From Alphaproteobacteria bacterium (GTDB lineage Bacteria > Pseudomonadota > Alphaproteobacteria > GCA-2731375), in NCBI GenBank assembly GCA_029936195.1, contig JAPYUH010000016.1:1-32723 (forward strand): a stretch of DNA of 32,723 nt, given 5' to 3'. Made by a program: the position numbers and the translations under genes. Positions 4,419 to 19,013 of this stretch are shown in pieces. Under the pieces are notes generated by a model. It did no database searches. It had not been told where the DNA came from and worked only from the letters and a program-made list of their open reading frames with translations. Within the stretch, counting starts at the first letter, position 1. Each line of letters begins with the position of its first letter.

Positions 4419-4601
4419 CTATTGCGCGGCCGCGGCACGTCCACGTTCCGCCGGCCGCCAGCCGGTGATGTCCCGGATCGGTCTGCCGAACAGATAGCCC
4501 TGGCCATATTGCACCCCTACATCGCACAGGAACCGCGCCGAAGCCTCCGTCTCGACCATTTCGCCGACGGTATCGACATCCCGCATGCCCTTGAACGCCA
4601 T
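4419..4601 (-). pseudogene. C-terminal fragment of an EAL-domain protein
   Basis: DTVGEMVETEASARFLCDVGVQYGQGYLFGRPIRDI matches the C-terminal end of EAL domains (AExVE...LGVDYGQGYLFGRP). The rest of the domain is absent. Confidence 0.65.
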
Positions 4602-5238
4602 TATCGGCTTTGCCCAAATTATCAGCCGCGAGTTGATGGGCCAGGTTTCCGACCAGCGCTATCGTTCCTACGCCTCGGATATTGAAAGCAGCGGCCGCCA
4701 TCTATTGGGCGTGATTGATGAAGTGCTGGATCTGGTGCGGGTACAGACCGGCGATCTGGAATTTACCGATAGTGAATTTGAGTTCGCCCAAGTGATAGAC
4801 AAATGCTGTGAAACCGTGGACAGCCTGGCCCACGCCCGCCACGTTGAATTGATCCGGGAACTGCCCGCGGGCGGCATGATGGTTCGGGCCGAACACGGCC
4901 GCATGCGCCAGGTGACCGTCGCCCTGCTGCCCAACTGTATCGCCCTGGTCGGCGGCGGCGGACGGGTGCATGCACAGTTTTCCAAGTCCGCCCAGGCGCA
5001 GCCCATGCTATTGATCCGCGCCACCGGCAGCACCGTATCGCCGGAACGCATGACCTTGGCGCTGGGACCCCTTGACGGCCTTCCCACCGGCCACGGCGCC
5101 GAACGCCTTGGCATTGGCTATGGCCTGCCCATCGCCCGCCGCCTGGTGGAACTGCACGGCGGCCAATTACAGGTTGGCGGACCGAAGGCGGAAAAAGCCC
5201 ACATCATCCTGACCCTGCCGGCCGAGCGTTTGCTGTAA
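4585..5238 (+). pseudogene. Truncated, degenerate sensor histidine kinase (HisKA/HATPase remnant)
   Basis: PLNAIIGFAQIISREL...RYRSYASDIESSGRHLLGVIDEVLDLVRVQTGD is the HisKA dimerization region directly after the missing SHELRT H-box. A G2-like GIGYGLPIARRLVELHGGQL is present, but the N-box and G1 box are degenerate. Confidence 0.65.
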
Positions 5239-7049: not shown

Positions 7050-8330
7050 ATGGAACACCTGACCCGCGACATCGCCACCCTTTTGTGCCTGGCCGCCGTC
7101 TTCGGCTATATCAACCACCGTTTCTTGCGTCTGCCCCGCACCATTGGATTGGTGATGATTGCCATGGCTGCCTCCCTGGCCGCCTTGGCCATCGATGCCG
7201 TCGTGCCGGACTGGGGCGTGGGACCGGGCCTGCGGGCGGCCCTGATCGAGATCGATTTTACCCAGACCCTGATGCACGGGATGCTGGGTTTTCTGCTGTT
7301 CGCCGGCGCCTTGCATGTGGACCTGGGACAATTGGCCCGGCGCGGCTGGTCCATCGCGACCATGGCTACTGTTGGCTTGCTGATTTCGACGGCCCTGGTC
7401 GGTTTTGGCATATGGCTGGCCTTTGATCTGTTCGGCATTGGCCTGCCGCTGATTTACTGCCTGTTGTTCGGTGCCTTGATCTCGCCGACGGATCCGGTGG
7501 CCGTTCTGGGAATTCTGAAAACCGCCAAGGTGCCCGCCAGCCTGGAAGCCAAGATTGCCGGGGAAAGTTTGTTCAATGACGGCGTGGGCGTGGTGGTCTT
7601 TGTCATATTGCTGGCCATGGCAACCAGCGAGGGGGGCGGTGGAGGCGCAATGGATGCCGGCGGCATCGCGATACTGTTCCTGAGGGAGGCAGTGGGCGGC
7701 GCGGTCTTGGGACTTGTTGCGGGCGCCATCGCCTTTTGGGCCCTGCGTTCCATCGATGAATACAATCTTGAGGTTATCATCACCCTGGCCCTGGTCACCG
7801 TGACTTATGAAGTGGCCCATATGCTCCATACCTCCGGCCCCATTGCCGTCGTCGTGGCGGGACTGTTGATCGGCAACCATGGTACCCGCCTGGCCATGAG
7901 CGATACTACACGGGAGCATTTGACAAACTTCTGGACCTTGATTGATGAAATCCTGAACGCCGTGCTGTTCTTGTTGATCGGACTGGAGGTGGTGTTGATT
8001 TCCACTACACCGGGCCTGATGTGGGTATCGCTGATCGCTATTCCCCTGGTCTTGTGCGCCCGGTTCGCCGCCGTCGCCGTGCCCATCACGCTGTTGGGGT
8101 TGTTCGCGGATTTCACCAAGGGGGCGATCCCCGTGCTTACCTGGGGCGGCCTGCGGGGTGGTATTTCCGTAGCCTTGGCCTTGTCGCTGCCGGCGGGATC
8201 GGAAAAGGATGCCATTGTCACGGTCTGTTATGGGGTCGTGGTTTTTTCCATCCTGGTCCAGGGTTTGACCATAGGGCGATTGGTGGCAAGGGTGGTTCCG
8301 GATCAGAGCGGGGGAAATGTACATGAGTGA
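7050..8330 (+). CDS. Na+/H+ antiporter, CPA1 (NhaP-like) family
   Basis: Polytopic protein with LISPTDPVAVLGILK and ESLFNDGVGVVVF motifs, and GGLRGGISVALALSLP. Start set to ATG 7050. Confidence 0.92.
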   Translation: MEHLTRDIATLLCLAAVFGYINHRFLRLPRTIGLVMIAMAASLAALAIDAVVPDWGVGPGLRAALIEIDFTQTLMHGMLGFLLFAGALHVDLGQLARRGWSIATMATVGLLISTALVGFGIWLAFDLFGIGLPLIYCLLFGALISPTDPVAVLGILKTAKVPASLEAKIAGESLFNDGVGVVVFVILLAMATSEGGGGGAMDAGGIAILFLREAVGGAVLGLVAGAIAFWALRSIDEYNLEVIITLALVTVTYEVAHMLHTSGPIAVVVAGLLIGNHGTRLAMSDTTREHLTNFWTLIDEILNAVLFLLIGLEVVLISTTPGLMWVSLIAIPLVLCARFAAVAVPITLLGLFADFTKGAIPVLTWGGLRGGISVALALSLPAGSEKDAIVTVCYGVVVFSILVQGLTIGRLVARVVPDQSGGNVHE

Positions 8331-8955
8331 GGCCGATCGCACGGTGGAGGCGCTGGACAGGCGCACTTTGTATCAAGGCTATTGCCGGCTGAATGAATAT
8401 CGACTGCGCCATAGTCTTTACGGCGGCGGCATGAGCGCGGACATCACCCGCGAGGTGATGGAGCGGGGGCACGCGGTCTTTGTCCTGCCCTACGATCCGG
8501 TCCGCGATGAAGTGGTGATGATCGAACAGTTTCGCATTGGACCGTACGTCAACGGTGACCAACCCTGGTCCCTGGAAATTGTAGCCGGCATGATCGAAGA
8601 CGGCGAGGCGTTGGAAGATGTGGTCCGCCGCGAGGCGCGGGGGGAAGCGGGCATTGAAGTTTGGAACATTACTTATTGCCTGGGTTTTTATGCCTCGCCC
8701 GGTACCACCTCCGAGCATTTTACAATTTTTTGCGCCCGAACCGACACCGCCGCGGCGGGCGGCATCCACGGCCTTGCCGAGGAGGGCGAGGACATATTGG
8801 TCATCGTTATGTCATTCGGCGAAGTCATGGCAGCCCTGGACAATGGCCGCATCAACTGCGGGCCCGTGATCGCGGCGTTGCAATGGCTGGCGCTGCACCG
8901 CGACGAGATCAGGCAGCGTTGGCTGGCCTTATATACATATTTTTATTGTGAATAA
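8323..8955 (+). CDS. Nudix hydrolase, ADP-ribose pyrophosphatase-like
   Basis: Nudix box GMIEDGEALEDVVRREARGEAGI, plus MIEQFRIGPY and FYASPGTTSEHFTIFCA. Overlaps the antiporter stop. Confidence 0.88.
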   Translation: MSEADRTVEALDRRTLYQGYCRLNEYRLRHSLYGGGMSADITREVMERGHAVFVLPYDPVRDEVVMIEQFRIGPYVNGDQPWSLEIVAGMIEDGEALEDVVRREARGEAGIEVWNITYCLGFYASPGTTSEHFTIFCARTDTAAAGGIHGLAEEGEDILVIVMSFGEVMAALDNGRINCGPVIAALQWLALHRDEIRQRWLALYTYFYCE

Positions 8956-9031: not shown

Positions 9032-10033
9032 ATGGACGTACGTCACGGATTTATCGACAGCATTGGCAATACGCCTTTGATCCGCCTGAAAAAGGCATCC
9101 GAACTCACGCAATGCGAAATCTATGGCAAGGCGGAGTTCCTGAACCCGGGTGGGTCGGTCAAGGATCGCGCGGCGCTGGCCATTGTCACCGCGGCAGAGG
9201 CGCGGGGGGACCTGAAACCTGGCGGTATCATTGTCGAAGGGACGGCCGGCAACACCGGTATCGGCCTGGCCCTGGTGGCGAACGCGCGCGGTTACAAAAC
9301 GGTTATTGTCATCCCGGAAACGCAGACACAGGAAAAGAAGGATATGCTGATCATGTGCGGGGCCGACCTGCGCCAGGTACCGGCGGTGCCTTACCGGGAC
9401 GACAACAACTTCGTAAAATATTCCGGCCGTTTGGCCAAGGAATTGGCCGCCAGCCACCCGGAAGGCGCCATATGGGCCAATCAGTTCGACAACGTGGATA
9501 ACCGCCAGGGCCATTATGACACCACCGGACCGGAGATCTGGCGCCAGACCGACGGCACGGTGGACGGCTTCATCTGCGCCGTCGGCTCGGGCGGCTCCCT
9601 GGCTGGGATTGCACAATATTTACGGGAGCAGAACCCCGCCGTCACCATCGGCCTCGCCGACCCGCCCGGCGCGGCCTTATACCACTACTATACCAAAGGT
9701 GAATTGAAGGCGGAGGGCTCCTCCATCACCGAAGGCATTGGACAGGGCCGCATTACCACCAACCTTGAAGGGCTGATCGTGGATAAGCCGTTTCACATTC
9801 CCGACGAGGATGCCCTGCAGATCGCCTTCGATCTGATTATCGAGGAAGGCTTGGTATTGGGGTCATCATCGGGGGTCAACGTGGCGGGCGCCATCCGTCT
9901 GGCCCAGGAAATGGGGCCGGGCCATACCATTGTGACCTTGCTTTGCGATGGCGCACAGCGGTATCAAAGCAAGATGTTCAATCCGCCCTTCCTGAGAGAG
10001 CAAGGCCTGCCCGTCCCAAGTTGGATGCGTTGA
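9032..10033 (+). CDS. cysK: Cysteine synthase A
   Basis: SIGNTPLIRLKKASE, NPGGSVKDRAA, EGTAGNTGIGLALVANARGYKTVIVIPETQTQEKKD. ATG 9032 follows a purine-rich ggagcagga. Confidence 0.88.
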   Translation: MDVRHGFIDSIGNTPLIRLKKASELTQCEIYGKAEFLNPGGSVKDRAALAIVTAAEARGDLKPGGIIVEGTAGNTGIGLALVANARGYKTVIVIPETQTQEKKDMLIMCGADLRQVPAVPYRDDNNFVKYSGRLAKELAASHPEGAIWANQFDNVDNRQGHYDTTGPEIWRQTDGTVDGFICAVGSGGSLAGIAQYLREQNPAVTIGLADPPGAALYHYYTKGELKAEGSSITEGIGQGRITTNLEGLIVDKPFHIPDEDALQIAFDLIIEEGLVLGSSSGVNVAGAIRLAQEMGPGHTIVTLLCDGAQRYQSKMFNPPFLREQGLPVPSWMR

Positions 10034-10047
10034 CAATCGAGGACCCC

Positions 10048-10761
10048 ATGACCGAACTTGTTTTTCGCGACGACCCCTATGCCAAAAGCTGCGAAGCCCG
10101 CGTAATCGCCATTAACGATCGCGGCGGCATCGAACTGGACCGCACGGTGTTTTATCCAACCGGTGGCGGACAGCCCGGTGATACGGGAACCCTGCGTCTG
10201 GCCGACGGCCGCGAGATTGTCATCGCGACGACGGTCAAGGGCGAAGGCCCGGACGATGTCATCCATGTTCCCGCCGAAGGGCAAGGCCCGGCCTCGGAAG
10301 GCGATACGGTCACCGCCGTCATCGATTGGGACATCCGCCACCGCCTGATGCGCATTCATACCTGCCTGCACCTGTTGTCCTCGGTGGTGGAGTATCCCGT
10401 TACCGGCGGACAGATCAGCAATGGCAAGGGCCGGCTGGACTTCGACATGCCCGAGATGACGGTGGAAAAAGACGCCATCACCGCCCGCCTGAACGAATTG
10501 ATCGCGGAAGCGCATCCGGTCAGCACGGACTGGATCACGGACGATGAACTGGCCGCCCAGCCGGACCTGGTCAAGACCATGTCCGTAAAGCCGCCCATGG
10601 GCCAGGGCCGGGTCCGACTGATCGATGTTGACGGCTGCGATCTGCAACCCTGCGGCGGCACTCACGTGGCCAATACATCGGAAATCGGCCAGGTACGGGT
10701 GCGAAAGATCGAGAAAAAGGGCCGGCAAAACCGGCGCGTCTCCATCGAATTCGTTGAATAA
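10048..10761 (+). CDS. Alanyl-tRNA editing protein (AlaX-like)
   Basis: VFYPTGGGQPGDTG, the HxxxH zinc motif (HTCLHLLSSVV) and CxxxH (CGGTHVANTSEIG). Confidence 0.9.
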   Translation: MTELVFRDDPYAKSCEARVIAINDRGGIELDRTVFYPTGGGQPGDTGTLRLADGREIVIATTVKGEGPDDVIHVPAEGQGPASEGDTVTAVIDWDIRHRLMRIHTCLHLLSSVVEYPVTGGQISNGKGRLDFDMPEMTVEKDAITARLNELIAEAHPVSTDWITDDELAAQPDLVKTMSVKPPMGQGRVRLIDVDGCDLQPCGGTHVANTSEIGQVRVRKIEKKGRQNRRVSIEFVE

Positions 10762-10778: not shown

Positions 10779-12596
10779 ATGACTATTTCGCCAACCGTGT
10801 CCACGGAATGGCTGGCCGACAATCTGGATAGCGTAAAAATCCTGGACGGCTCGTTTTATCTGCCGGCGGAAAACAGAGATGCGGAAGCCGAGTATGCCGC
10901 TGCCCATATTCCCGGCGCGCAACGCTTCAACATCAATGTTGTTTGTGCGCCCAGCGATCTGCCCCACATGTTTCCCGACCCGGTGAGCTTTGCCGATGCG
11001 GTCGGCGCCATGGGGATCGGCAACGATGACATGGTGGTTGCCTATGATGGCGGCAAACTGACCGGGGCCTGCCGGGTGTGGTGGATGTTTCGCGCCTTTG
11101 GCCACGACAAGGTGGCGGTGCTGGACGGTGGCTTCAACAAATGGCGGGCCGGGGGCGGGGCGGTTGAAGACAATGTAGCGGCCCCCGCCAAGGCAAGCTT
11201 CTGCGCTGATTACCGGGAGGGCATGGTGCGATCCGTCGACCATATGTTGACCCTTATCGGGCAGGGCGGCGAATCCCAGATTATTGATGCCCGAAGCGCT
11301 GGCCGTTTCGACGGCACGGCGCCCGAACCGCGGGCCGGCCTGCGTTCCGGCCACATGCCCGGCGCCCACAATCTACCCTACGACCAATTGCTGAACCAGG
11401 ATGGCACCTTGAAGGCCGCCGACCAGCTGCGGGAATTGTTCGGCGGCGCGGGCGTCAATCTGGACAAGCCGGTTGTTACCTCCTGTGGCTCCGGTGTTTC
11501 GGCGGCGGTTCTGTTGCTGGGCCTGACCGTTTTGGGACATAGCGCCAATACCTTGTACGACGGCAGTTGGTCCGAATGGGGCGGCCGCGACGACACACCC
11601 ATCGTTAACCTGACGCCCATGCAACTGCGCACTTACGTAGACGCGGACCAGGCCGCCGTCGCCGAATTATGGCAACGGGCGGGCCTAATGCAGAACCCGT
11701 TGAACGATCCGGTCCGGGATATCGCCTTTTGCATTGCGGGCGGGCATGGCGAAATTCTTGTCCTGGAGGATGCCGGCATTATCGTGGCCACGGTGATGGT
11801 GGGCCAGGACGGCCACCGCGGCTGGATCCATTACCTCGCCGTGGAGCCGGAACGCCAGGGCGAACATCTGGGACTGCGTATTGTACGGGCCGCCGAAGAT
11901 CGTCTGAAAGAGCAAGGGGTGCCCAAGGTGCACCTCATGGTCCGGGGCAGCAACACGGAGGCCGTGGGCTTTTACCAACGACAGGGCTATCGGGTGGAGC
12001 CGGTGACCACCATGAGCCGGCGCCTGGATGGCCAGGCCCTGCCCGTGGGCCATCAGATGGACGACGAACCGGTAATGATTACCTATCTGGAAATGACCCA
12101 GCGCCCCTCCCTGCCCCAAATCATCCCCAAGGCCCGCAAGTACGCCCTGCTGGGCGCGCACGAGATGACGGTGGGCTTCTACCGCTACCTCTATGATGCC
12201 GTGGGCCGGCCCTGGTATTGGACGGACCGCAAGCGGCTGTCGGATCAGGAATTGGCGGTGATTATCGAGGACGATGGGGTGGAGATTTATGTCCTCTACA
12301 TCGGCGGCGCCCCAGCCGGTTTCTATGAACTGGATGCCCGCCAGATGCCCACGGTTGATCTGGCCTATTTCGGCATCATGCCGGACTACATCGGCCTTGG
12401 CCTGGGCCCCTATCTATTGGTCCAGGCGATCGACATGATGTGGCAAAAGGAACCTGATCGCGTCACGGTCAATACCTGCACCCTGGATCATCCCAAGGCC
12501 CTGCCCCTCTACCAACGCATGGGGTTCCAGCCCTATGACCGCCAGGAGGTTCCCGCCCCCTGGCAGGACCCTGACAACATTCTGGATTTTGCTTGA
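10779..12596 (+). CDS. Fusion protein: 3-mercaptopyruvate sulfurtransferase (tandem rhodanese) + GNAT + GNAT
   Basis: Rhodanese repeats with active-site loop CGSGVSA and WSEWGGRDDTPI. GNAT 1: IHYLAVEPERQGEHLGLRIVRAAEDRLKEQGVPKVHLMVRGSNTEAVGFYQRQGYR. GNAT 2: VDLAYFGIMPDYIGLGLGPYLLVQAID...NTCTLDHPKALPLYQRMGFQPY. One uninterrupted frame. Confidence 0.9.
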   Translation: MTISPTVSTEWLADNLDSVKILDGSFYLPAENRDAEAEYAAAHIPGAQRFNINVVCAPSDLPHMFPDPVSFADAVGAMGIGNDDMVVAYDGGKLTGACRVWWMFRAFGHDKVAVLDGGFNKWRAGGGAVEDNVAAPAKASFCADYREGMVRSVDHMLTLIGQGGESQIIDARSAGRFDGTAPEPRAGLRSGHMPGAHNLPYDQLLNQDGTLKAADQLRELFGGAGVNLDKPVVTSCGSGVSAAVLLLGLTVLGHSANTLYDGSWSEWGGRDDTPIVNLTPMQLRTYVDADQAAVAELWQRAGLMQNPLNDPVRDIAFCIAGGHGEILVLEDAGIIVATVMVGQDGHRGWIHYLAVEPERQGEHLGLRIVRAAEDRLKEQGVPKVHLMVRGSNTEAVGFYQRQGYRVEPVTTMSRRLDGQALPVGHQMDDEPVMITYLEMTQRPSLPQIIPKARKYALLGAHEMTVGFYRYLYDAVGRPWYWTDRKRLSDQELAVIIEDDGVEIYVLYIGGAPAGFYELDARQMPTVDLAYFGIMPDYIGLGLGPYLLVQAIDMMWQKEPDRVTVNTCTLDHPKALPLYQRMGFQPYDRQEVPAPWQDPDNILDFA

Positions 12597-12786: not shown

Positions 12787-13578
12787 TTAATGAGTCAGAA
12801 TTTGGCTCAAAAATTGCTTTGTTCTGTCGGACTGCGGGTTGTTAAAGAATTCGTTCGGTTCGTTCTGCTCGACAATATCGCCCTCGTCCATGAAGATGAC
12901 CCGGTCGGCGATGGTTTTGGCGAAACCCATTTCATGGGTGACCACGATCATGGTCATGCCGGTGGCGGCCAGTTCCACCATGACGTCGAGCACTTCCTTG
13001 ATCATTTCAGGGTCAAGGGCCGAGGTCGGCTCGTCAAACAACATGATTTTGGGGTTCATGCACAATGACCGGGCAATGGCCACCCGCTGCTGTTGCCCGC
13101 CGGACAGCTGGCCGGGAAATTTCTCCGCCTGTTCTGGAATCTTGACCCGCTCAAGATAACTCATGGCAATGTCCCGGGCTTCCGCCTTGGGAATCTTTCG
13201 CACCCAGATTGGGCCCAGGGTCAGATTCTCGAGTATGGACAGATGGGGAAACAGATTGAAACTTTGAAACACCATGCCCACTTCACTGCGGATGTGGTCG
13301 ATGTTTTTCAGATTCTTGTCCAAGGTAATGCCGTCAACCACGATATCGCCCCGTTGATGTTCTTCGAGGCGGTTAATGCAACGGATCAGCGTTGACTTGC
13401 CTGATCCGGACGGGCCGCAGACAACAATTCGTTCGCCCTTGTGCACAGTCAAATTGATGTCCTTCAGGACATGGAAACTGCCAAACCACTTATTGACCTG
13501 ATTCAGTTCAATAATGACCTCGGACGAAGCGGCCGACGCCAACTGGCCCTGGGTTTCCTGGCCATCCACTGCTGTCAT
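12787..13578 (-). CDS. aapP: General L-amino acid ABC transporter, ATP-binding protein
   Basis: Walker [10 protein letters not shown], signature LSGGQQQR, Walker [16 protein letters not shown], amid aapJQM. Confidence 0.93.
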
Positions 13579-13603
13579 TACTCTCTCCCCCGGTCTGTCC
13601 GGA

Positions 13604-14938
13604 TCAATGTTTTTCGCCGGCTGAAAGCTTCACTTCCAGATGCCGGCTGTATTTTGACATGGCGAAGCAAATGACAAAGAACAACGCCGCGCCGAAGATC
13701 AGCGGTTCATGATGCAGTCCGCGCCAAGGAATATCCTGAGAGATGGCCCGCAACATACCCAGCAGATCAAACAGCCCAATAATCGATACCAGCGTGGTGT
13801 CCTTGAGCAGGCCGATGAAGCTGCCGACGATATTCGGGATCATATGCTTCAGGGCCTGCGGCATCACGACAAAGGCCATCATGCCCCAGTAACCTAGTCC
13901 GATAGTATGGGCCGCTTCGTATTGACCCTTGGGAATTGCCTGCAGGCCCGCGCGCACGGTCTCGGCCATGTAGCAGGCGGAAAACAGGCATACGGCGATA
14001 ATCACCTGAACCAGTTTGTTCAGGACGAAGCCTTCCGGCATGAACAGCGGGAACATGGTGGTCGCCATGAACAATACCGTGATCAGCGGAACCGAGCGGA
14101 AGATTTCGATGAACGAGACACTAAGCACGCGGATCACGGGCAGCCTGGACCGCCGTCCGAGAGCAAGGATAATTCCGCCTGGAAGAGCCGAGGTAATACC
14201 GATGCCGGAAATGACAAGGGTAAGATGCATCCCGCCCCATTTTGACCAGGGCACCGCCATGACGGTCCAGCCCATTTGAAGCGCGTAGACAACCACGTAG
14301 GCAACAGCCAGGATCGCCAGCAAGGTGTTGCGCTGATTGCCATCCGAGGCCTTCTCCTTACCTAAAACAGCGATGAGATATTCCGGCAGACTACGGCCGC
14401 TGGTCATGCCGAGAATGGAATGCACCGTATTGCCGATCAGGCAGACGATGGCCCCGGTCGTCATGACCTGCATGAAGATGCCCTTGTCGCCGCCGGCAAA
14501 CAGATAACCCGCCAGGAAGGGATAGAGGAACACCGTCGACAGTCCGATAAAGATCTTGTCCTTGACCCGCGGCAGCCATAGCGGCGCCATCCACAACACC
14601 AGCAGCAGACCACCCAAATTCACCCGCCATATTTGGTCCCTGGGAAAGCGGCCGTAGAAGATGTTGTCGAACCAGATGAGGACGCCAGCCCAACAGGCGC
14701 CATGTTTCGAGATGGCGAAACATTCGCGCCGGTTTTCAGCCACCCAAACGGCATCCAGGACACCCCAGATCAACAGGCTTTTCGACACCGAATAGATGAT
14801 ATAAATCGAAATAATGGTGAGAATGGTGTTGATCCAGGAACTGAACAAGTTCTTTTGCAACCATCCGATGAATGTCGTTTCCGACAGCGGCGCGTCCCTG
14901 GGAGCGGTTTTTTCATGTTTCACCATGGACATGGTCAA
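13604..14938 (-). CDS. aapM: General L-amino acid ABC transporter, permease
   Basis: Long HisM-type permease; [48 protein letters not shown]. Confidence 0.92.
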
Positions 14939-16152
14939 CGCTCCTCCAACTGAACGCGCTTGTTATAAATGTTCAACACGCCGGAAATTGAGAGGCTGAT
15001 GAACATGTAGAAAGCCATGGTCATACCCACCATTTCAACGGCATAGCCGGCCTGGTTCAGTGCCGTCTGCATGAACAGCGCCACCACGTCCGAATATCCA
15101 ATGGCGATCGCCAGCGAGGAATTCTTGACCACGTTCATCCACAAAGAGATCATCGGCGGCACGATGGCGCGCATGGCCTGGGGAATGATGATCAGGGATA
15201 TCGCTTTTTTCGGACGCAGGCCGATGGCCAAGGCCGCTTCGGTCTGCCCCTTTTCCACGGACAAAATGCCCGCCCGCACTGCCTCCGCCAAATGGGCCGC
15301 ATGATAGGAAACCAAGGCGACCAGCAAGGCCAGGAAGGCTGGCGGCAAAGCGGCGCCACCGGCGAAATTGAAACCCTGCAGCGTCGGCACATCCCAATTA
15401 AGGGTCGAACCCGATGCCAGATAGACGAGATACGGCAACACGATCAGCAAGGCGATGGAGGCCGACCATATCGGAAACTGTTTGCCGGTTTCGTCCTGAC
15501 GCTTGTGGGCCCAGCGTCTGAGCACGAAGACCCCGACGACGGCGGCTAAAAAGGCGACGATTGTCATCCAGAACAGATCGTCCGGCACCGGCCACGCGGT
15601 ATAAAGACCGCGGTTATTAAGAAAGGCCACTTCCGCCCCGGCGGACAAATCAAGACTATTCTTAACCCTGGGCAACAGGGCAAAAACCCCGACGTACCAA
15701 AAAATTATCTGCAGCAGCAGCGGGGTGTTACGAACGATCTCGACATAAGCCAGGGCCAGGCGGGCGACTAGCCAGTTGGATGACAGCCGCAAAACACCGA
15801 CCGCAAAGCCCAGCACCGTGCTGAAGATAATCGCAAAAAATGAAACCAAAAGGGTATTGAGACAGCCGATCAGGAAAATGCGGCCATATGTGCCAACACC
15901 AGGCTTATACTCAATAAGTTTGAAATCCGTATCGAAACCGGCAGTGGCGCTCAGAAAGCCAAAGCCCGTGTTCATGCCACGTACTTGGAGATTGTGCGCC
16001 GTATTGGATATCAGATACCAAGCCAACCAGCCGACAACGCAAGCCGTCAGAATTTGGTAGGCTACCGAGCGGACCCGCTCGTCATGAAAAAAATCGAACT
16101 TCTCTTTCGGCTTTAGTGTCGCCACCGTCTTACCAGCACCATCGATCGCCAT
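14935..16152 (-). CDS. aapQ: General L-amino acid ABC transporter, permease
   Basis: HisM-type permease; EAALAIGLRPKKAISLIIIPQAMRAIVPPMISLWMNVVKNSSLAIAIGYSD. Overlaps the aapM start. Confidence 0.92.
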   Translation of the reverse strand: MAIDGAGKTVATLKPKEKFDFFHDERVRSVAYQILTACVVGWLAWYLISNTAHNLQVRGMNTGFGFLSATAGFDTDFKLIEYKPGVGTYGRIFLIGCLNTLLVSFFAIIFSTVLGFAVGVLRLSSNWLVARLALAYVEIVRNTPLLLQIIFWYVGVFALLPRVKNSLDLSAGAEVAFLNNRGLYTAWPVPDDLFWMTIVAFLAAVVGVFVLRRWAHKRQDETGKQFPIWSASIALLIVLPYLVYLASGSTLNWDVPTLQGFNFAGGAALPPAFLALLVALVSYHAAHLAEAVRAGILSVEKGQTEAALAIGLRPKKAISLIIIPQAMRAIVPPMISLWMNVVKNSSLAIAIGYSDVVALFMQTALNQAGYAVEMVGMTMAFYMFISLSISGVLNIYNKRVQLEER

Positions 16153-16195
16153 GCCATCAGACCCCGATTTTACGCATGGAATACACCAAAGAAAT

Positions 16196-16227
16196 TCGGC
16201 CCCGGTTCATTTCAGAACCGGGGCCGA
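16196..16227 (-). promoter_or_regulatory. Strong stem-loop in the aapJ-aapQ intergenic gap
   Basis: TCGGCCCCGGTTC-atttca-GAACCGGGGCCGA: 13-bp perfect stem, 6-nt loop, no poly-U. Confidence 0.8.
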
Positions 16228-16236
16228 TCGTCGATC

Positions 16237-17277
16237 CTAGCGGAACGGCGGTGCGTACATCAACCCACCCTTGGTCCATAGATCGTTGGCCGATCCGGCC
16301 CGGCTAATGCCGATGCCCAATTTACCGCCGCCCATATAGGCTTCGTAAATTTCACCGTAGTTGCCGACTTCCTTGATGATGTTGTAGGCCCAATCCTTGG
16401 ACAGACCCAAACCTTCATTAAGATTGCCTTCGACGCCGAGCATGCGGCGCACGGAAGCGTTGGTCGAGGTGGAGCGCATCTTGTCAACGTTAGCCTTGTT
16501 GACGCCAAGCTCTTCAGCGTTGATCAAGGTGTAGACAGTCCACTTGACGATGTCGAACCACTGCGCATCACCCTGCCGCACGGCCGGAGCCAGGGGCTCT
16601 TTGGAGATGGTTTCGGGCAGCACAATGTGGTCACCCGGATTTGGGAAAGCCGCCTTGTTGGACGCCAGACCGGATTTATCGTTGGTCAACGCATCGCAAC
16701 CGCCTTGCAGATAAGTATCGTTGCGGACGTTGGAGTCCTCGAACGTTACCGGTTTGATGTTCATGTTGTTTACCCGGCTGAAATCCGCCAGGTTCAATTC
16801 CGTGGTGGTGCCGGTCAAAACGCAAACCGTGGCGCCCTTGAGCTGCATCGCGGAGGTGATGCCGCTGTCCTTGGGCACCATGAAGCCCTGGCCGTCATAG
16901 AAGTTGACTGCCGTGAAATCCAGGCCAAGCTGGGTATCACGAAGCAGGGTCCAGGTTGCGGTCCGCGACAGCATGTCGCTTTCACCGTTGGCAAGGGCCG
17001 TAAAGCGCACCTGGCTGCTGACCGATTGGATTTCAAGTTTCGTCTTGCTGCCAAAAATAGCGGCGGCGACAGCCTGGCAGATCGAGACATCGCTGCCGTA
17101 CCAATTGCCCTTGGCATCCAGATTATAAAAGCCAGGGCTCGCCGGGCCGACCTGGCAGCGTAGATGGCCACGTTCCTTGACGATTTCGAGCGTGGTCTTC
17201 GCCGTAGCGACCGTTGCTCCGGCAAAGCTCATCGCAACGACGGCTGCTACCGATAGAACAAAAGAATTGGGTTTCAT
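16237..17277 (-). CDS. aapJ: General L-amino acid ABC transporter, substrate-binding protein
   Basis: Signal peptide, VKERGHLRCQVGPASPGFYNLDAKGNWYGSDVSICQAVAAAIFG, ...NYGEIYEAYMGGGKLGIGISRAGSANDLWTKGGLMYAPPFR. Confidence 0.94.
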   Translation of the reverse strand: MKPNSFVLSVAAVVAMSFAGATVATAKTTLEIVKERGHLRCQVGPASPGFYNLDAKGNWYGSDVSICQAVAAAIFGSKTKLEIQSVSSQVRFTALANGESDMLSRTATWTLLRDTQLGLDFTAVNFYDGQGFMVPKDSGITSAMQLKGATVCVLTGTTTELNLADFSRVNNMNIKPVTFEDSNVRNDTYLQGGCDALTNDKSGLASNKAAFPNPGDHIVLPETISKEPLAPAVRQGDAQWFDIVKWTVYTLINAEELGVNKANVDKMRSTSTNASVRRMLGVEGNLNEGLGLSKDWAYNIIKEVGNYGEIYEAYMGGGKLGIGISRAGSANDLWTKGGLMYAPPFR

Positions 17278-17679: not shown

Positions 17680-17841
17680 ATGAAATTGCCGCCCCGGATC
17701 AAGCTGCACAAGCTGATCAAGCTGCATGGGGGGGCATCGCCGCTAAGTCACTGGCGCGAAGGTGGCGGGAATGGCATCATGGTGCGCATCTTCACCCAGC
17801 TACGCCGCACGCCCCTTATCCAAAGAGACAACCGAGTATGA
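17680..17841 (+). CDS. Possible 53-aa ORF overlapping the metC start (ATGA)
   Basis: MKLPPRIKLHKLIKLHGGASPLSHWREGGGNGIMVRIFTQLRRTPLIQRDNRV*; its TGA (17839-17841) overlaps the metC ATG (17838). No convincing RBS. Confidence 0.3.
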   Translation: MKLPPRIKLHKLIKLHGGASPLSHWREGGGNGIMVRIFTQLRRTPLIQRDNRV

Positions 17842-19013
17842 AAGACGAAACGAAATTGGTCACGTCGGGCCGCGACCCGGAAAACAATCACGGCGTCGTC
17901 AATCCGCCAGTCTACCACGCCTCGACCATCCTTCATCCTACCTTGGACGCGTTGGAGAGTTCCCGGGAGCGGCGGGCGTCGGGGGAACGGGGCGTCTATT
18001 ACGGCCGCCGGGGCACGCCGACGACATTCTCTCTCGAGGACATGGTCTGCGCCATAGAAGGCGGCCACCGCTGTCAGGTCTATCCCTCCGGGCTGGCGGC
18101 CATTGCCGCTTCACTTCTGGCATTCCTGAAAGCCGGCGATCACATATTGATGTCGGATGCGGTCTACGCCCCGGCCCGGCGCTTTTGCAATGATCTGGCC
18201 AGCCGTTATGACGTTTCGACGACATTCTATGATCCGGGCATCGGGGCCGGCATCGCCGAGCTGATCCAGCCCAACACCCGCGTGGTTTATGTGGAGGCGC
18301 CGGCCACGGCGACGTTCGTGATGCAGGACATCCCCGCGATCGCAGACGCCGCCCATGACAAGGACTGCATCGTAATGATGGACAATACCTGGGCCTCGCC
18401 CTTGTATTGCAAGCCGTTCGACCTGGGCGCCGATGTCTCCATCCAGGCCGGCACCAAATATATCGTCGGCCATTCCGACGTCATGATCGGCACCGCCTCG
18501 GCGACCAAGGAAGCCTGGCCGGCGATCGAAGCCATGGCCGGACTGCTGGGCCATGCCGCCGGTCCCGATGATGTGTATCTGGCCCAGCGCGGCATGCGCA
18601 CCCTGTCCGTGCGCCTGAAGCAGCATTGGGAAAACGGCCTGAAGTTGGCTGAATGGCTGCGCGAACAGGACATGGTGGAGGTGGTGATGCATCCCGCCCT
18701 GCCCGACGATCCTGGCCACACCCTGTGGAAGCGCGATTTCCAGGGCGCCTCGGGATTGTTCGGCACCACATTGCGGCCCTGCCCCCGCAAGGCGATCGCC
18801 GCCCTGGTGGATGATCTGGAACTGTTCGGCATGGGTGCCTCGTGGGGCGGCTATGAAAGCCTGATCCTGCCGCAAGACCCCAACGCCTTTCGCACCGTCA
18901 CGCCGTGGCCTTATGAAGGGCAATGCGTGCGCTTTCATATTGGTCTGGAAGACCCCGACGACCTGATTGCCGATTTGTCGGCCGGATTTAAGCGTCTGAA
19001 AGCCGCCATGTAG
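17838..19013 (+). CDS. metC: Cystathionine beta-lyase
   Basis: PLP Cys/Met metabolism family: YGRRGTPT, CQVYPSGLAAIAASLLAFLKAGDH, MMDNTWASPLYCKPFDLGADVSIQAGTKYIVGHSDVMIG. Confidence 0.93.
   Translation: MKDETKLVTSGRDPENNHGVVNPPVYHASTILHPTLDALESSRERRASGERGVYYGRRGTPTTFSLEDMVCAIEGGHRCQVYPSGLAAIAASLLAFLKAGDHILMSDAVYAPARRFCNDLASRYDVSTTFYDPGIGAGIAELIQPNTRVVYVEAPATATFVMQDIPAIADAAHDKDCIVMMDNTWASPLYCKPFDLGADVSIQAGTKYIVGHSDVMIGTASATKEAWPAIEAMAGLLGHAAGPDDVYLAQRGMRTLSVRLKQHWENGLKLAEWLREQDMVEVVMHPALPDDPGHTLWKRDFQGASGLFGTTLRPCPRKAIAALVDDLELFGMGASWGGYESLILPQDPNAFRTVTPWPYEGQCVRFHIGLEDPDDLIADLSAGFKRLKAAM

Follow-up and report, generated by a model that had tools for sequence, protein, structure and literature searches.

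A probably species-private fusion of a 3-mercaptopyruvate sulfurtransferase with a GNAT pair in an alphaproteobacterial cysteine operon

The 3-mercaptopyruvate sulfurtransferase (MST) SseA of E. coli (PDB 1urh) ends after its rhodanese pair. The protein described here resembles it over the whole tandem-rhodanese part, including the MST-type CG(S)GV loop, but continues into two GNAT acetyltransferase domains (GNAT1 and GNAT2). For GNAT1, the closest described protein is E. coli YpeA (PDB 2pdo, 4qus, and 4qvt), a GNAT of unknown role, with 36% identity and a TM-score of 0.86 for the model. GNAT1 differs from YpeA by an altered acetyl-CoA loop and by being fused on both sides. A published screen lists YpeA among the strains that it tested. 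The best fold matches of the GNAT pair were double GNATs, i.e. mycothiol synthase (1ozp), the tandem GNAT of the clavulanate pathway (2wpw), and VipF (7wx5), with 11–17% identity and an rmsd of about 16 Å or more, values that do not establish the same domain arrangement. Unlike the protein studied here, these three carry no MST. With the MshD profile, GNAT1 scored 24 bits and GNAT2 15.9 bits (cut-off 163), which places both outside mycothiol synthase.

At the level of gene order, Sinorhizobium meliloti (CP090106) has the same sseA and GNAT families, adjacent and in the same order, but as two separate genes and without GNAT1. In Agrobacterium and Allorhizobium, MST and the same GNAT2 family occupy one ORF within a cysK-alaX-MST operon; that fusion differs from the present one in lacking a YpeA-like GNAT1, in having its own linker, and in being fixed in the genus. 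Literature searches returned no description of an MST-GNAT fusion, nor of MST together with AlaX and cysteine synthase.

Domain composition of the 605-residue frame

The window, i.e. the whole stretch of 32,723 nt that was analyzed, contains a single uninterrupted open frame of 605 aa on the + strand, from the ATG at 10779 to the TGA at 12594–12596. An earlier note, made from the sequence, had read this frame as an MST followed by two mutually different GNAT domains. Domain searches bore this out: Pfam reported two rhodanese and two Acetyltransf_1 domains, and together with NCBIfam gave the order MST, YpeA-like GNAT1, and another GNAT that has no curated name (GNAT2). Between the two GNAT domains, only a remote similarity was detected (23% identity over 57 aa, E = 0.008). 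The features of the frame are as follows.

10779–11606, + strand: MST part, tandem rhodanese, residues 1–276 (PRK11493; PDB 1urh), catalytic Cys236 at 11484–11486
11603–11621, + strand: fusion junction CGTTAACCTGACGCCCATG, with one extra base relative to congeners within 11605–11608 (junction alignment of 18 relatives)
11619–12053, + strand: YpeA-like GNAT1, residues 281–425 (NCBIfam PRK03624; YpeA alignment)
12054–12593, + strand: GNAT2, residues 426–605 (Pfam Acetyltransf_1), GLGLG loop at 12393, TCTLDHP motif at 12474

Residues 3–277 matched PRK11493 (3-mercaptopyruvate sulfurtransferase) with 271.4 bits (cut-off 250), SseA was matched with E = 8.8e-65, and the modelled MST part superposed on known MSTs. 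The active-site loop CGSGVSA, with Cys at residue 236, fits the MST-type pattern CG[ST]G[VT][TS]A and is kept in relatives. The loop of thiosulfate rhodaneses, CRKGVT, is unlike this type.

GNAT1 matched PRK03624 (YpeA-type GNAT) over residues 280–419 with 136 bits, above the cut-off of 124. Its acetyl-CoA loop reads QGEHLG versus RGRGIA in E. coli YpeA, so that the central Gly is replaced by His and GNAT motif A (R/Q-x-x-G-x-G/A) is not matched; congeners mostly have QGQDLG, with Asp at the central Gly. The missing Gly weakens the case for GNAT1 activity, while leaving the YpeA-type ancestry untouched. GNAT2 matched PF00583 with E = 1.6e-9. Its glycine-rich acetyl-CoA loop GLGLG is intact, an alignment displayed invariant G/W/D/P positions, and the domain is the sole copy in its genome. 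Among the curated NCBIfam families, no named family matched GNAT2.

The AlphaFold model of the 605-aa protein (mean pLDDT 83, pTM 0.49) consists of three separate domains, connected by low-confidence, disordered-looking linkers at residues 266–279 and about 410–427.

The two joins and the MST-GNAT1 junction

The family sample comprised 15 genomes including that of the window (the same set as the order sample), i.e. 14 comparators. MST and GNAT share one frame in the window genome only (1/15 of the family and order). In all 14 others they are separate genes, in line with the statement of the earlier note that these functions are normally separate proteins. The GNAT1-GNAT2 join was found in all family genomes and also in other Alphaproteobacteria (L042, L054, L076, and L082), while GNAT1 and GNAT2 are separate genes at loci L043–L045. 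The two joins thus differ in standing: one is conserved in the family, and the other is unique to the window genome and hangs on one base. The GNAT1-GNAT2 join is the older of the two. An origin of both in a single event was rejected, since the GNAT1-GNAT2 join is family-wide but the MST-GNAT1 join is not. The earlier note had held that consistently separate ORFs in relatives, together with read evidence for a frameshift or stop in this assembly, would refute the fusion; the first of these was found for MST and GNAT1, and not for the GNAT pair.

The junction sequence of the window is ATC GTT AAC CTG ACG CCC ATG. In relatives, ATC GTn ACC is followed by a stop and, after a short spacer, by the start codon of the GNAT gene. 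Alignment with L011 and L012, the two closest relatives, shows exactly one additional base in the window. Removing one base at 11605–11608 yields the family C-terminus DDTPIVT* (TGA) and places the GNAT ATG 5 nt downstream, which is the spacing in these two relatives. As one base fewer restores both the family MST end and the spacing of the GNAT start, the MST-GNAT fusion comes down to a single base. Both former signals are still present, the stop triplet TGA at 11611–11613 out of frame and the GNAT start ATG at 11619–11621 in frame, a pattern expected if the extra base is erroneous or was gained very recently.

An error would take the form of one base wrongly added to the consensus during sequencing or assembly, with two adjacent genes in the true genome. 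The split state of all 14 other family genomes argues for such an artefact, as do the single-base difference and the preserved homologous stop and start; the three-domain form is known from one assembly only, and this genome is fragmented (540 contigs). On the other side, where window genes allowed a full-length comparison with congeners, no further frame break was detected. Indel errors are thus uncommon in this sequence, and the extra base lies outside any long homopolymer. The site also appears to tolerate frequent natural indels, whereas a random error would usually be expected to fall inside a gene. In ten congeners, the distance from the MST stop to the GNAT start was 8, 8, 14, 13, 13, −1, 14, −23, 14, and 14 nt. 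Given this frequent variation in junction length and the otherwise intact frames, we regard an artefact as rather unlikely and a genuine, species-private MST-GNAT fusion, i.e. a change really present in the genome, as the likely explanation. The three-domain protein is probably a private and recent variant.

Other changes at this junction were noted in the family. The MST ends of L016 and L018 are also altered. In L018 (genome G007), around positions 1495–1559, the MST stop TGA is substituted by CGA. The MST is thereby 21 residues longer and overlaps, in a different frame, with the start of the GNAT gene, a second case of natural variation at this site. Locus L021 (genome G012) alone in the family carries an insertion at this point, about 650 nt with an unrelated ORF, between MST and the GNAT pair. 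A reported 828-aa open frame in G012 was rejected as a second fusion, since the MST stop is present.

A genuine fusion could also be functionally neutral, with two independent units linked without consequence as a by-product of a tolerated indel. The flexible, low-confidence linker at residues 266–279 and the occurrence in one species only agree with such neutrality, as does the way in which the domains evolve. Relative to the congener G001, unique amino-acid changes in the window numbered 22 versus 22 for MST, 13 versus 13 for GNAT1, and 11 versus 12 for GNAT2, while relative to G003 the window MST and GNAT1 have changed more. Gene decay after the fusion was rejected, as none of the three domains exceeds G001 in amino-acid change (MST and GNAT1 do exceed G003). 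Against neutrality, a similar fusion has been kept across the Agrobacterium clade and is stable at least there. We consider a neutral fusion quite possible, though less likely than not.

A shared operon and an independent fusion

The frame has the following neighbors.

8317–8955, + strand: NUDIX hydrolase (Pfam NUDIX), upstream neighbor retained in several orders
9032–10033, + strand: cysK, cysteine synthase A (NCBIfam PRK10717, 551 bits, above 387), same operon, conserved neighbor
10048–10761, + strand: alaX-like alanyl-tRNA editing protein (Pfam tRNA_SAD), same operon, conserved neighbor
12787–17277, − strand: convergent amino-acid ABC transporter (Pfam BPD_transp_1, SBP_bac_3), beside the operon in several orders; ATPase 12787–13578, permeases 13604–14938 and 14935–16152, binding protein 16237–17277
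17838–19013, + strand: Cys/Met metabolism PLP enzyme, probably metC-type (Pfam PF01053), nearby in several relatives

The gaps are 14 nt between cysK and the alaX-like gene and 17 nt between the latter and MST. We term the gene AlaX-like because its product scored 221 bits with NCBIfam AlaXM, below the equivalog cut-off of 300. The convergent transporter we take to be aapPMQJ. Within the window, no Rfam elements were found, and promoter and terminator scans performed no better than on shuffled sequence.

A cysK-alaX-MST-GNAT2 arrangement is found again in Rhizobium, Sinorhizobium, Brucella, Mesorhizobium, and Hoeflea, among others. In several lineages, it is accompanied by the NUDIX gene, the transporter, and the PLP enzyme. 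As the surveyed loci were picked by similarity to the window protein, counts among them are not frequencies. Judged by gene order, the unit goes back to an ancestral cysK-alaX-MST-GNAT2 operon that is widespread in Alphaproteobacteria and whose composition points to cysteine or thiol metabolism, or to detoxification.

At seven loci (L055, L061, L084, L092, L103, L111, and L118), belonging to Agrobacterium vitis, A. larrymoorei (L118), Allorhizobium, and relatives, MST is joined directly to GNAT2 without GNAT1. These fusions have a related linker and no GNAT2 start codon left, and the join is one uninterrupted frame in 39/39 genomes of the genus of L118. A stable fusion shared by more than one species of a lineage was thus found for Agrobacterium, and not for the window. 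In the remaining Rhizobiaceae, MST and GNAT2 are mostly separate genes or have a stop between them. Among 385 genomes of the class, no direct MST-GNAT2 fusion was detected (11 strong two-domain matches, with a stop between in 11/11), so that this fusion is not generally favored. As a side observation, Shinella sp. PSBB067 (NZ_CP069303) gave a single-piece match across MST and GNAT2.

Mapping the fused state on the MST tree takes three changes, of which well-supported branches require at least two. By this criterion, the fusions of the window and of Agrobacterium are separate events. Descent of the former from the latter was rejected on the same grounds and because the architectures differ.

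The conserved operon together with an independent MST-GNAT2 fusion argues for MST and GNAT2 being linked in function, with cysteine or thiol metabolism as the probable setting. The earlier note had suggested that sulfur transfer is coupled to acetylation; adjacency in the operon and the stable fusion of Agrobacterium and Allorhizobium lend this indirect support. Its further suggestion, a possible N-acetylation of cysteine-related metabolites, gains no direct support from these data, and none of the results points to N-acetylcysteine in particular. Alternatively, MST and GNAT2 may be neighbors only for co-expression, e.g. under cysteine stress, and act on unrelated substrates, GNAT2 possibly being a protein- or tRNA-related acetyltransferase linked to alaX instead of MST. 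Such an arrangement would fit the presence of alaX and cysK in the same operon, GNAT substrates cannot be read from sequence, and GNAT2 has no named family. However, even where cysK or alaX could not be found in the vicinity (e.g. L087 and L116), GNAT2 still comes after MST, and it fuses with MST, not with alaX. Co-expression alone is a serious contender, although we do not lean toward it.

Proposed origin and function, and further features of the window

In the scenario that we propose, a ypeA-like gene would have been acquired between MST and GNAT2 of the ancestral operon, and the GNAT1 and GNAT2 genes would then have fused in the family of the window. Finally, the change of a single base in the last MST codons of one species would have removed the stop and brought the GNAT pair in frame. 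The MST stop and the GNAT start of relatives are only a few bases apart, and no ribosome-binding site was evident by eye ahead of the latter; on this basis, MST and GNAT are probably translationally coupled there. The fusion would turn such coupled synthesis into a covalent link.

The MST part would take sulfur from 3-mercaptopyruvate onto Cys236 and pass it to a thiol; the resulting Cys236 persulfide is presumably what a member of this family forms. GNAT2 would transfer an acetyl group to the amine of an amino compound that is related to cysteine or otherwise toxic, with GNAT1 serving mainly as a structural or regulatory partner. GNAT2 is the likely catalyst, given its intact acetyl-CoA loop, its conserved positions, and its persistence beside MST across the class. 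GNAT1 is probably accessory, because the central Gly has been lost in the genus and because double-GNAT enzymes usually have only one active domain (PMC12219266). Taken as a whole, from operon and ypeA-like insertion to fusions and coupling, the scenario appears moderately likely; that the MST/GNAT2 pathway works in the way proposed is a more tentative suggestion.

A stronger reading is that alphaproteobacterial MST and GNAT2 work as a single unit under recurrent pressure to fuse, and that the 3-mercaptopyruvate/cysteine persulfide pathway either produces the GNAT2 substrate or shares in its detoxification. We think this improbable; if true, it would give a new step from sulfur to acetylation. 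The three-domain protein taken alone is a one-base variant of one species, and the wider MST-GNAT2 pattern is more useful: in many Alphaproteobacteria, a cysteine operon places an unnamed GNAT family next to MST, and the two have fused on at least two occasions. From here, the role of an unassigned GNAT family and the physiology of bacterial MST can be approached by experiment, and culturable strains permit a direct comparison of the fused state in Agrobacterium with the split state in Sinorhizobium.

Two further features of the window were noted. A histidine-kinase fragment (HisKA and HATPase) lies at 4528–5238 (+ strand), with a 217-aa ORF at 4585–5238. It is without the N-terminal 210–240 aa of the 450–460 aa proteins in three congeners, and the missing part had no match elsewhere in the window. 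The permeases and binding protein of the convergent ABC transporter (13604–17277, − strand) share 82–90% identity with G001 and G010, versus about 47–56% with G003, G005, and G009, which suggests, from these identities, that two versions of the transporter have been exchanged within the genus.
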